Shown in pieces: positions 1,275 to 58,712 of a DNA stretch of 64,000 nt. Both the position numbers and the translations under genes were made by a program. The DNA is from Allobosea sp. Tri-44 (GTDB lineage Bacteria; Pseudomonadota; Alphaproteobacteria; Rhizobiales; Beijerinckiaceae): NCBI RefSeq assembly GCF_004123845.1, contig NZ_NBDP01000030.1, positions 124,001 through 188,000 on the forward strand, read 5' to 3'. Positions within the stretch are counted from its first letter, which is position 1. Each line of letters begins with the position of its first letter. Under the pieces are notes generated by a model. That model was not told where the DNA came from, ran no database searches, and saw only the letters and a program-made list of their open reading frames with translations.

Positions 1275-1407
1275 GCGAGCCTCCGGCGTCATGAACGGGT
1301 TGCCCGGGCTCTAGCATGCGCGGCGAGCGCTTGCCGATAGCAAAACGCCGCATGCACGCGGTGCGCAGATTGCAGTTACCGTTCGGTCACCAGCTCGGCC
1401 GCAGCGG

Positions 1408-1809
1408 CTATTTCACCATCGGTGTGCAAACGACCTTGTCGTCGAAGACGTAGCAGACGCTGAGCTCGCCGGTGCGGACATTGGCGCGGAAGATGCCGCC
1501 TTCACGCTCATGGCGCGAGGGAACGAGCACATAGTCGCTGGGCGCCTGCGGGCCGGCCCCCTCGCCCGCCGGGAAGCAGACGGTGACGCCGACGCCACCC
1601 TCCTTGAGCTGGAACTGGCAGGCGCCGACCTCGCCCGTCGCCTTGTCGATGCGATAGACGCGGTTGAGGTCGGTCTGCGGCGCCGGTGCAAACTCGAACG
1701 GCGCGGCAAGCGCCGCCCCGAAGGCGGGCAAGACGAACAGACCAGCGCCCAGCACCCGGACAAGGGAGCGGCCAAAGGAGCTTTTGGGACAGCTCGACAG
1801 TTTCGGCAC
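1408..1809 (-). CDS. Small secreted protein of unknown function
   Basis: A 133-residue product from a GTG at 1809, where AGAGGG lies about nine bases upstream; an ATG at 1848 would add 13 residues but has no ribosome site. The N-terminus has a basic stretch and a hydrophobic signal segment ending in AALA, so export is likely. The mature part is acidic to neutral and has three cysteines. It contains two similar segments, RVYRIDKATGEVGACQF and IFRANVRTGELSVCYVF, which look like paired beta-hairpins each ending in a cysteine strand. I do not recognise the family. Confidence 0.65.
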   Translation of the reverse strand: MPKLSSCPKSSFGRSLVRVLGAGLFVLPAFGAALAAPFEFAPAPQTDLNRVYRIDKATGEVGACQFQLKEGGVGVTVCFPAGEGAGPQAPSDYVLVPSRHEREGGIFRANVRTGELSVCYVFDDKVVCTPMVK

Positions 1810-1967
1810 CGCTACGACCCTCTCGACGATTCGGGCGGAGGCTATCATGCCGCTCGGCAGCGATCACCTTTATGACTCGCTCTTGCCATCGTGGCGTGCA
1901 AGGCTTGCTTAAGGTCGAGCCTTCATGGTGCTATCGATGGTAAAGCTCCGCTCTATTAGGAGCCCGG

Positions 1968-2684
1968 ATGACCGCTGCCCAATACACTTTCCACATAGCA
2001 GGCTTCACGCCTGAGACACTGCCAATGGCAAGGTTGGCCGATTATCTGAGCGATCTCGCCCAGCTTCTCGGCTCGAAAGAGCACGTCCACCTCGATCGCA
2101 TCGAAGCCGGAAGTATCAGACTTGCGGTGGCAATCGACCAGGAAGTGCGCCCTCTTGTCGGCCCGCGAGTGCGCAGTGCAGCGCAGGGAGACGGGCCCAA
2201 AGAAGCACAGGCCGCATGGCTTCGGCTAAATGAGCGACTAGGCAAAGACGGTGCCAGAGCCAATCTGGAACTCCCGGGCGGAGAGATAATTCCCTTTCCT
2301 GGCTCAGCGGCCCCTTCCAAGCCGGTCGGGCCTCTCCGACAGGAGACCGCGATTCAAGGGCGGTTGGTCCGCCTTGAGGGTTATGGCGACGACGTCTCGG
2401 TAGGCATCGAGGATGAAGCTGGCCTCGCTGGCCGGATTGTCGTTCGTGCGGATTTGGCGCGCGACCTCGGCAATTACTTTCATCGTCATGTAAGACTCTC
2501 GGGCCGCGGAAGATGGCGCCGCAATACAGAGGGACAGTGGTGTCTGGAACATCTCGATGTCACCGACTTCACGCCTCTTGACGACAAACCCCTTGATGAC
2601 GTGCTTCGTCATGCCGGCAGCCTCCTTCCGGAAGGCAGCGCGCAAAAGGCTATTGATCTGATCCAAGAGCTACGGCGCGCATGA
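1968..2684 (+). CDS. Uncharacterised 238-residue protein coupled to a PIN nuclease
   Basis: Not recognised. The N-terminal half (about 1-95) opens with a mixed alpha/beta stretch including HIAGFTPETLPMARL. A proline-containing linker follows at about 100-120. The C-terminal half (about 125-205) is beta-rich, with GRLVRLEGYGDDVSVGIED and RHVRLSGRGRWRR, which resembles a small barrel such as an OB fold; that is inference. A final helix follows. TTAGGAG lies six bases before the ATG. Its TGA overlaps the ATG of the PIN gene, so the two are probably translated together. It is far longer than usual VapB antitoxins and shows no AbrB, RHH or HTH motif. Codon use looks less GC-biased than its neighbours. 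Confidence 0.8.
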   Translation: MTAAQYTFHIAGFTPETLPMARLADYLSDLAQLLGSKEHVHLDRIEAGSIRLAVAIDQEVRPLVGPRVRSAAQGDGPKEAQAAWLRLNERLGKDGARANLELPGGEIIPFPGSAAPSKPVGPLRQETAIQGRLVRLEGYGDDVSVGIEDEAGLAGRIVVRADLARDLGNYFHRHVRLSGRGRWRRNTEGQWCLEHLDVTDFTPLDDKPLDDVLRHAGSLLPEGSAQKAIDLIQELRRA

Positions 2685-3181
2685 TCGTAGTCGATGCGAA
2701 CTTTCTTGTGCTGCTCTTGGACCCTGGCGCAATGCCCCATCTCGATCGGGGACGCGAACGTGTCGAGTTCTTCATCCAAGAACTGACTCGGCAGAGAACC
2801 GAGATTGTCATTCCCGCACCAGTGGTAGCGGAAATCGTTGCCGGTCGCATCGACCGCATCGAAGAGATAGCCGCCACGCTTATCCAAAGTCGGTTCTTCA
2901 CCGTCCAGCCCTTCGACGCTGTCATCGCCATCGAGACTGGGGAGATGATCAAGAAGGCACAAGACCGCATTCCCGCGGCAGAGCGATTGCCTGGATGGCG
3001 CGTGAAGATGAAGTACGATGCGATGATCGCTGCAACAGCCAAGGTGCGCAGGGCCAAGGCTGTTTGCACTGACGATGCAGGTCTGCGTGCGCATCTGCGG
3101 GATAGCGGTATCGAGATTATCTGGATCGACGATCTGCCGCTGCCGCCAGAAGATTCACAAGGCACGTTCGAGGGCGTCTAA
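2681..3181 (+). CDS. PIN-domain nuclease (VapC-like)
   Basis: A 166-residue PIN-domain protein, probably a Mg-dependent ribonuclease. The acidic centre is visible: Asp5 in VVDANF, Glu51 in PVVAEI, Asp113 in KYDAMIAA and Asp131 in CTDDAGL. Typical VapC toxins are about 130-140 residues; this one has extra helical sequence between about 60 and 105. The ATG overlaps the upstream stop (ATGA), which couples it to the 238-residue gene. The arrangement suggests a toxin-antitoxin-like or RNA-processing pair, but the upstream partner is not a known antitoxin type. Confidence 0.88.
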   Translation: MIVVDANFLVLLLDPGAMPHLDRGRERVEFFIQELTRQRTEIVIPAPVVAEIVAGRIDRIEEIAATLIQSRFFTVQPFDAVIAIETGEMIKKAQDRIPAAERLPGWRVKMKYDAMIAATAKVRRAKAVCTDDAGLRAHLRDSGIEIIWIDDLPLPPEDSQGTFEGV

Positions 3182-3241
3182 ACGCCTTGCCAAGCGGTGC
3201 CGGCCAGCCTTTATGCACAGGGCCACGTCACAGGATTGCCC

Positions 3242-6546: not shown

Positions 6547-7302
6547 ATGACACCTACCATGTTCGGATTTCAGCAGCGTGCCTCGCGCGCGCTCAGTGCC
6601 CTCGCGATCGCCTTGTGGCTCGCCGCCCCGTCGGCTCGGGCCGAGGCGCCGATCACGGTCAAGGGCGGCGAGACCGTCACGATCAGCGGCGTCCGCAGCA
6701 TCCTCATCCGGGCTCCACATCCCAAGGGCAGCGTGATCCTGCTAACCGGCGGCGACGGGCGTCTCGAGGTCGGCAGCGGCGCGCGCTTCGGCAAGGCCGG
6801 AGACAACGTCCTGATCCGCAACCGCGATGCGTTCGTCGCACAAGGCTACAACGTGCTTCTCGCTGAGCTCGGGACGAACCTCTCCGCTGCAGTCGACCAC
6901 ATGGCCGCGATCAAGCGCCCGGTCATCGTGATCGCCACCAGCAAGGGCACGCAACGAGCCGCCGAAGGACTCGTGGAGGGCGCCATGCCGGACAGGCTCG
7001 TCCTGACCTCCGGCTTCCTCAGCAAGGCATCCGGGCCCGACGACACCGTCCAGAGCATCCTGGGAACGCCGAACCGGCTGCCGCGAACACTCGCCCTGCA
7101 CCATCGCGAGGATCGCTGCCGCTGGACACAGCCTGCCGGCGTTGCTCCGTTTCAGGCTTGGGCCGGCGGCCGGGCCCATATCGAGTGGATGAGTGGCGGC
7201 AATGCCGACGAGGCCAATCCGTGCCGCTCCAGCGCTCATCACGGCTTCGCCGGGCAGGACGAGGAGTTCGTCGCCCGCATCGTCAAGTTCATGATGCGCT
7301 GA
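6547..7302 (+). CDS. Secreted alpha/beta-hydrolase-like protein
   Basis: About 250 residues with a cleavable signal peptide (hydrophobic segment ending SARAEA). The fold order suggests an alpha/beta hydrolase: a first strand at about 62-68 (VILLTGGDG), then a nucleophile-elbow-like IVIATSKGT near 127-135 where GxSxG has become ATSKG, and late His residues (ALHHRED, AHHGFAGQDEEF). Function is unknown and the altered elbow leaves activity uncertain. ATGs at 6547 and 6559 are both possible starts. It is followed by the acyltransferase 80 bases later. Confidence 0.7.
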   Translation: MTPTMFGFQQRASRALSALAIALWLAAPSARAEAPITVKGGETVTISGVRSILIRAPHPKGSVILLTGGDGRLEVGSGARFGKAGDNVLIRNRDAFVAQGYNVLLAELGTNLSAAVDHMAAIKRPVIVIATSKGTQRAAEGLVEGAMPDRLVLTSGFLSKASGPDDTVQSILGTPNRLPRTLALHHREDRCRWTQPAGVAPFQAWAGGRAHIEWMSGGNADEANPCRSSAHHGFAGQDEEFVARIVKFMMR

Positions 7303-58074: not shown

Positions 58075-58311
58075 ATGCAGGTCGCACGCTGGGGCAACAG
58101 CCTCGCCATCAGAATTCCTGCGGCCGTCAGCGAGGCACTCTCGCTCAAGGAAGGCGATGACGTGGAAATCCGGATCGCGAACGACCGGACCTTCCTGATC
58201 GCGCGCGACGAGCGCAAACGGCGCGCGCTTGCCCGCATCCGCAGCCTGCGCAGGCCGCTCCCGCCGGGCTGGCGTTTCGATCGCGACGAGGCGAACAAGC
58301 GCACGCCGTGA
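58075..58311 (+). CDS. vapB: AbrB/MazE-type antitoxin (VapB)
   Basis: A 78-residue DNA-binding antitoxin. QVARWGNSLAIRIPAAVSEA is the swapped-hairpin AbrB/SpoVT motif; the C-terminal arm (PPGWRFDRDEANKRTP) should lie over the toxin. Its stop overlaps the GTG of the PIN gene. The palindrome 17 bases upstream is the likely binding site. Confidence 0.93.
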   Translation: MQVARWGNSLAIRIPAAVSEALSLKEGDDVEIRIANDRTFLIARDERKRRALARIRSLRRPLPPGWRFDRDEANKRTP

Positions 58312-58712
58312 CGCGCAGCTTCCTAGACAGCAATGTGGTCGTCTACGCCTTCTGCGAAGATCCGCGTAACGCCTTGGCCGAGGAGTTGCTCGGCAGGGGC
58401 TGCGAGATCAGCGTCCAGGTCCTGAACGAGTTCGCCAATGTCGCGCGTCGCAAGCTCGGCTTCTCCTGGGCGGAGATCACTGACGCGGTCGAGGCGATCA
58501 CGATACTGAGCCGCACCGTCCATCCGCTCGATCTCGCCACGCACCAGGAGGCTGTCCGGCTGGCCGAGCGGTACGGGTTCAGCCTCTACGACGCGCTGAT
58601 CGTGGCGAGTGCGCTACGAGCGGGTTGTGCCGTGCTCTACAGCGAAGACATGCAGCACGGCCTGGTCATCGACGAGCGGCTGAGAATCGAGAATCCGTTC
58701 AAGGCGGAGTAA
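58308..58712 (+). CDS. vapC: PIN-domain toxin (VapC)
   Basis: A 134-residue PIN ribonuclease from a GTG coupled to the antitoxin (GTGA). Acidic residues: Asp7 in FLDSNV, Glu41 in VLNEFANV, Asp95 in LYDALIVA and Asp114 in YSEDMQHG. Length is normal for VapC. Overexpression would be expected to block translation by RNA cleavage. Confidence 0.93.
   Translation: MTRSFLDSNVVVYAFCEDPRNALAEELLGRGCEISVQVLNEFANVARRKLGFSWAEITDAVEAITILSRTVHPLDLATHQEAVRLAERYGFSLYDALIVASALRAGCAVLYSEDMQHGLVIDERLRIENPFKAE

Follow-up and report, generated by a model that had tools for sequence, protein, structure and literature searches.

Layout of the two-gene locus

The window, that is, the whole stretch of 64,000 nucleotides analyzed here, belongs to a genome of 6.05 Mb and carries a pair of overlapping genes on its forward strand. 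The upstream gene (1968..2684, + strand) starts with ATG and encodes a 238-aa protein, P0001, hereafter called the partner, which matches the phage protein family phrog_19868, has a conserved PIN neighbor and is a proposed antitoxin or regulator. The downstream gene (2681..3181, + strand) also starts with ATG and encodes a 166-aa putative PIN-domain nuclease, P0002, recognized by its PF01850 match, its structural similarity to VapC and its acidic tetrad. Both open reading frames and the ATGA stop/start overlap that they share (2681..2684, + strand) lie exactly where a preliminary description of this DNA had placed them, and the overlap suggests translational coupling. The partner is probably translated first from a common message, since it is encoded just before the PIN gene and overlaps it.

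The pair is preceded by a leader (1850..1967, + strand) with a Shine-Dalgarno-like AGGAG at positions 1958-1962, before the partner ATG. Between the window and the same-genus copy L017, 102 of 115 aligned leader bases are identical, a somewhat higher conservation than in the coding parts, which show 80.1% and 83.5% identity. A stretch similar to the leader also precedes the copy in genome G017, at another genomic site. The leader is possibly an operator or a leader RNA. A scan for the sigma-70 consensus gave no matches (0.5 expected by chance), the three terminator-like sites detected are all located inside the genes, and no convincing family-wide 6-mer motif was found in 116 stretches upstream of partner genes.

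The third-position GC content (GC3) of the two genes is 0.59 and 0.65, versus 0.81-0.90 in the four flanking genes, in agreement with the earlier remark that codon usage in the pair is less GC-biased than in its neighbors; over the 43 longest open reading frames of the window, a set unfiltered for real genes, GC3 averages 0.77 and goes down to 0.53. Comparison of the window with L017 yielded dN values of 0.083 for the partner, 0.040 for PIN and 0.117 for the next gene, with dN/dS ratios of ∼0.085, ∼0.04 and ∼0.26, respectively. Thus, both genes of the pair are under purifying selection. A chance pairing is excluded by the independent homologs that keep the gene order and by dN values lower than that of the next gene. 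In the same comparison dS is ∼1.0 in both module genes and 0.45 in the next gene, both copies being located at the same site. Simple shared descent at one site is insufficient to explain this excess, which possibly reflects repeated acquisition or weaker codon constraint.

Blastn comparison with the loci of 10 relatives delineated the insertion. In relative G003 (locus L181), the flanks matching window positions 1302-1849 and from 3185 onwards lie 68 bp apart. The window pair is a 1.3-kb insert (1850..3184, + strand) composed of the leader and two genes, with an empty site in a relative. It stands alone between genes conserved in relatives. The module occupies this site in genome G058 as well; the copy in G017 has a different one, its match to the window being confined to 1898-3138.

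The PIN protein

P0002 matches PF01850 with an E-value of 4.6e-12 (47 bits against a cut-off of 23.6). Its structure model (pLDDT 92.6, pTM 0.86) aligns over residues 1-150 of 166 with VapC structures (Z 15.1, rmsd 2.1, 125 aligned residues). In an alignment of 92 PIN rows, selected for full length after removal of duplicates, contig-end fragments and partial PINs, the acidic residues D5 (codon 2693-2695, + strand), D113 (3017-3019) and D132 (3074-3076) are present in all 92 rows and E51 (2831-2833) in 91, so that the whole tetrad is kept in 91 of 92 rows. The preliminary description had named Asp5, Glu51, Asp113 and Asp131 as the active-site acids; the first three hold, and the fourth conserved acid is D132 in place of D131, which is present in the window PIN and is an aspartate in just 67 of 92 rows. 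By its model and alignment, the PIN gene product is predicted to have the VapC fold together with the active-site residues. K111, two residues before D113, is invariant in this PIN sub-family (92/92 rows), and we know of no ordinary VapC with its equivalent.

HMM searches of the PDB with the partner and PIN alignments revealed no convincing sequence relative. In PADLOC, the P0002 protein matched the candidate PDC-M07B alone (E 0.019), and the 92 PINs matched PDC-M11A in 13 cases and PDC-S70 in 3 among other candidates, with a best E-value of 2.1e-4. Searching phages with the single P0002 sequence returned no match, though the partner search yielded two phages; the window PIN is so diverged that a search with its sequence alone misses the phage PINs.

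Family status and structure of the partner

The partner had been described as resembling no recognized antitoxin family, and this is borne out at the level of curated family cut-offs, none of which it reaches in Pfam, NCBIfam or PADLOC. Its single Pfam match is Imm32 (E 0.019, 15.3 bits against a cut-off of 27), and NCBIfam and PADLOC gave nothing at E ≤ 10. Over most of its length P0001 matches two phage protein families annotated as being of unknown function, phrog_19868 (E 7.2e-42, residues 4-213) and phrog_21691 (E 7.6e-22, residues 2-161), the former of which matches all 108 partners scanned. Against PADLOC, these 108 partners matched the candidate PDC-M32A in 5 cases (best E 3.2e-4) and otherwise gave single rows above 0.01. 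Named PADLOC system models matched neither P0001 and P0002 nor any of the 108 partners and 92 PINs. Our searches of open-licence PubMed Central papers brought up none on this pair.

The AlphaFold2 model of the partner has a mean pLDDT of 91.3 and a pTM of 0.61, a value that leaves the arrangement of the domains uncertain. The model agrees with the earlier suggestion of an alpha/beta beginning and a beta-barrel end, and identifies the barrel as an OB-fold. Residues 1-110 (1968..2297, + strand) form an alpha/beta N-terminal domain with a conserved TPxTLPMxRLAxY motif. Residues 120-203 (2325..2576, + strand) form the barrel, which in the model has five strands with a helix between strands 3 and 4. 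Its structural matches include single-stranded DNA-binding proteins (SSB), PriB and aspartyl-tRNA synthetases, with Z up to 9.2 over residues 123-206; the comparison with SSB Rim1 gave Z 9.2 and rmsd 3.6 for 82 aligned residues. R176, G179, W183, R185 and W191 are conserved in this domain, and R176, W183, R185 and W191 are nearly or fully invariant. Neither protein of the pair has a strongly hydrophobic stretch.

The C-terminal tail (residues 204-238; 2577..2681, + strand), a proposed PIN-binding element, consists of two helices in the model and is variable in sequence except for R236 (codon 2673-2675), which is found in 104 of 106 rows, the other two of the 108 rows having no residue at that position. 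Partners lacking R236 occur at two PIN-broken loci, L052 and L058, where the tail is shortened, and at two loci with an intact PIN, L057 and L132, where it is missing in the alignment. Analysis of inter-protein covariation placed the tail in 11 of the top 40 pairs against ∼7 expected, with no clear interface. The distances among partners and among PINs run parallel (r 0.74, with 0.14 as the maximum in 500 permutations), as expected for a pair that is inherited together.

Co-occurrence of the partner and PIN genes

We scanned a genome collection of 84,980 species, each represented by one genome, with a 10-row partner alignment and retained the 80 best of its 98 relatives; a further scan with the partner found 23 viral contigs. 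Together with loci from phages, plasmids and genome searches, the partner-anchored set comprised 127 loci, and 125 after L134 and L135 (genomes G245 and G282) were dropped as OB-only, their partner matches spanning 34-40 residues. Merging eight loci with identical partners left 117 distinct partner sequences. Six of these were left out of the test, five ending at a contig edge and one having the partner itself cut by a contig end. Among the remaining 111 (with the genome scan represented by its best 80 of 98 relatives), 96 have an intact full-length PIN and 15 a disrupted PIN or none; 14 of these 15 still show PIN traces, some of them weak. The outcome that the preliminary description had named as a refutation, homologs mostly without a PIN neighbor, was thus not seen. 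Overlapping or directly abutting genes account for 80 of the 96 intact pairs, the commonest spacings being -4 (34 pairs) and -1 (29 pairs). Among the best 80 of 98 relatives, the hosts include α-, β- and γ-proteobacteria, Acidobacteria and Gemmatimonadales.

Searches anchored on PIN gave the reciprocal result. A full-length partner lies just upstream in 22 of 22 viral loci, two contig pairs among them having the same outcome and about 10 being on contigs also found with the partner. The 18 distinct genome loci contain a full-length partner in all 16 testable cases, the window's own included; L138, with the partner cut by a contig end, and L144, where the contig ends inside PIN, were set aside. 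With both queries applied to 385 genomes of the class, both genes were found in 10 genomes, the partner alone in one (G361), which holds a PIN remnant, and PIN alone in one (G388), where the locus is cut at a contig end. Among 335 genomes of an order, three contain both genes and none a single gene. In 72,556 plasmid records (E 1e-5) the PIN and partner queries each found seven, six of them in common. The remaining two are a Proteus record, found with the PIN query and also with P0001, and a Kingella record, found with the partner query only, in which a PIN split between two frames adjoins the partner. A phylum search and a 48-genome search that gave no new locus used the PIN query only and are kept outside these co-occurrence counts. 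The partner and PIN genes are strictly paired and constitute a real module.

The viral contig IMGVR_UViG_2791355159_000004 has pairs at two ranges (L116 and L172), and seemingly carries two copies of the module.

Asymmetric disruption of the pair

The 15 non-intact PINs comprise frameshifts, stops, deletions and remnants, with the partner retained in each case. L083 has an in-frame PIN deletion, L024 a weak remnant (E 0.1) and L058 no PIN trace; the disrupted PINs of L047 and L099 lie near contig ends, at distances of 354 and 366 bases. In the viral locus L109, a reading frame that resembles an HNH-type homing endonuclease lies downstream of position 6735, directly after the PIN remnant.

A disrupted PIN with the partner kept was thus observed 15 times, with the genome scan contributing its best 80 of 98 relatives, against 0 disrupted partners in 38 loci (Fisher p 0.012), a modest asymmetry between partner-anchored and PIN-anchored sets that overlap. 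As the largest set consists of the best 80 of 98 relatives, broken partners are under-sampled. Where both genes served as queries (viral contigs, class, order and plasmids), five PINs (L109, L175, G361, Sinorhizobium and Kingella) and no partners are disrupted (one-sided p 0.031). For viral contigs alone, the numbers are 1 disrupted PIN in 18 distinct partner-anchored loci and 0 disrupted partners in 22. The Sinorhizobium PIN is in a single piece in M103 and in two pieces in K101 and C101, being frame-disrupted in K101; over 1597 aligned bases, a gap of one base is the sole difference between M103 and K101, and this disruption may be a sequencing error.

Mobility and genomic neighborhood

The module is carried by chromosomes, plasmids, the phages Ostro and Pacha, and viral contigs. 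Its distribution is patchy, with copies in 5 of 101 relatives and, in the class, in 11 of 385 genomes when the two OB-only matches are not counted. In both Ostro and Pacha the pair is located downstream of a CI repressor on the same strand. Using four queries against the open reading frames of 138 loci, we found a CI/LexA-like repressor in 13 loci, four of which had supplied a query; in 12 of them it lies upstream on the same strand, 61 to 2427 bases away. The place downstream of a CI-type repressor suggests that the pair is expressed in the lysogens of some temperate phages.

The 146 open reading frames nearest to the pair, picked by length without a gene caller, match 74 PADLOC families at 1e-8, versus 29 for 138 control frames; these are counts of families, not genes, and the controls, taken from other genomes, have a greater length (median 312 versus 211 aa); 20 of the initial 158 were left out because of their size. 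This is a weak sign of defense-rich surroundings. The commonest Pfam family among the 146 nearest frames occurs in four of them only.

Comparison with known systems

The pair resembles VapBC in the PIN fold and acidic tetrad, in the upstream partner with a short overlap, and in its mobility and patchy occurrence. The usual VapB has ∼80 aa and a DNA-binding fold; the partner is roughly three times as large and, according to its model, has alpha/beta and OB domains in place of a small DNA-binding fold. No VapB-type DNA-binding antitoxin family was found for the 238-aa P0001 in Pfam or NCBIfam. Since this VapB feature was looked for and was absent, the pair is not assigned to VapBC. A locus of ordinary VapBC shape, in contrast to the pair, is present in the same window at 58075-58712, where a 78-aa frame, which we take to have an AbrB-like beginning, overlaps a 134-aa PIN frame by 4 bases. 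The source genome (G000) contains 20 PIN-family matches.

In the phage lambda, rexAB are two accessory genes that follow the phage repressor, and RexB is a membrane protein. The pair in Ostro and Pacha likewise consists of two genes after a repressor, without any claim of sequence relationship; unlike RexB, its proteins have no strongly hydrophobic stretch.

The partner was aligned by Foldseek in BFVD with a phage DUF6575 protein over 256 columns (E 1e-8, TM 0.34 by query, rmsd 15), values at which there is no rigid superposition. Pfam gave no DUF6575 sequence match for P0001, and an own-genome search matched nothing, controls included. The top BFVD matches that extend over both domains of the partner are phage proteins, and A0A8S5QA00, Q6NE06 and A0A8S5T657 were aligned by Foldseek to both. 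The PADLOC candidate PDC-M32 resembles the pair in that PDC-M32A weakly matches 5 of 108 partners and PDC-M32B matches 1 of 92 PINs (E 0.046). It differs in having no match to P0001, and PDC-M11A, equally weak (best E 2.1e-4), is commoner in the PINs (13/92).

The DefensePredictor system DS-5 is likewise formed by two proteins including a PIN ribonuclease and is described as likely not a toxin-antitoxin system, with a partner that has DUF5830 and an AcrIF4-like domain (PMC13092281). The DUF5830 ascribed there to the DS-5 partner is absent by Pfam from P0001, and also from the matches listed for the 108 homologs (25 of 45 weak families). The PIN-associated antitoxins given in section 9 of Makarova et al. 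2009 are COG2442/DUF433, COG2886, COG2880/DUF104, COG1753/DUF217 and MerR-like proteins (PMC2701414). They share with the partner the position next to PIN, and their descriptions in that section set them apart, as these are HTH, AbrB, RHH or MerR-like DNA-binding families with no OB-fold family among them.

Functional interpretation

On balance, the pair is probably a mobile toxin-antitoxin-like module in which the partner would restrain a putative VapC-like RNase, possibly in the service of replicon maintenance or phage exclusion. The antitoxin-first overlap, the VapC fold, the strict pairing, the mobility and the losses on the nuclease side together make this the best account. The preliminary description had offered either a new toxin-antitoxin type or an RNA-processing module; the former is favored, and the latter finds no support. 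Patchiness, carriage by phages and plasmids, antitoxin-first gene order and losses that affect PIN and not the partner all speak for the toxin-antitoxin reading.

The main rival to the toxin-antitoxin-like reading is a two-protein anti-phage system consisting of a sensor and an effector, in which the partner would sense the phage and act as an obligate activator or guide of PIN, both proteins being needed and the loss of the partner being harmless. We hold this to be rather unlikely. It has a precedent in DS-5, which reportedly needs both parts and shows no unrestrained toxicity (PMC13092281). The OB-fold with its conserved arginines and tryptophans suits nucleic-acid recognition, the pair adjoins a phage repressor, and the nearest open reading frames match more defense families than the controls do (74 families for 146 frames against 29 for 138, counted as families, with controls that are longer and from other genomes). 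However, such a system would be expected to lose both genes equally, whereas 15 PIN disruptions stand against 0 of 38 for the partner (in overlapping sets, with the best 80 of 98 relatives), and the gene order with its overlap has the classical antitoxin-first form.

Two further readings start from the domain composition. The combination of a PIN with an OB-fold amounts to a nuclease plus an RNA-binder, and aspartyl-tRNA synthetases are found among the OB matches, as might be expected of a host module for RNA processing or RNA repair. Such a role is nevertheless very unlikely for genes that occur in 5 of 101 relatives and, within the class, in 11 of 385 genomes, that travel on phages and plasmids, that are missing from the empty site in G003 and that are accompanied by no Pfam family in more than 4 of 146 neighboring frames; we rejected it because of this patchiness and mobility. 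When structures are compared, the barrel is matched best by SSB and PriB chains. This would fit an accessory pair for phage replication or recombination, composed of a nuclease and an SSB-like protein and merely hitch-hiking on chromosomes. This we consider very unlikely, given that the window pair stands alone between conserved genes and is under purifying selection, and that in Ostro and Pacha the pair is located beside the repressor.

Few toxin types are as common in prokaryotes as PIN nucleases, which are usually paired with small proteins that bind DNA. In VapB and FitA structures, an arginine at the end of the antitoxin plugs the acidic pocket of the PIN toxin. Under the toxin-antitoxin-like reading, the second gene would produce a VapC-fold ribonuclease, and the partner would bind this nuclease and keep it silent. 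By analogy with the arginine plug, we propose that the C-terminal tail with its near-invariant R236 may do the silencing. The OB-fold and alpha/beta domains would stand in for the small DNA-binding domain of VapB; they could mediate dimerization or act as sensors, with single-stranded nucleic acid as a possible ligand. Once released, the nuclease would block translation, and thereby serve either replicon maintenance or abortive infection.

A more speculative, and rather unlikely, extension is that the partner is the first of a novel antitoxin-sensor class. The protein, with its OB-fold, would clamp a VapC-like RNase by the arginine tail and release it on phage single-stranded DNA or RNA. If that is true, an abortive-infection switch triggered by nucleic acid and made of two small genes is present in prophages, plasmids and chromosomes.

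The pair is widespread and conserved, and its large OB-fold partner, in the case of the window protein, is matched above chance level by no family of Pfam, NCBIfam or PADLOC. The proposed role would give a function to phrog_19868 and phrog_21691. If the module serves as a toxin-antitoxin or defense system, it would allow a direct test of nuclease inhibition and nucleic-acid sensing within one protein, and with this pair the relation of PIN toxins to PIN defense systems becomes testable.
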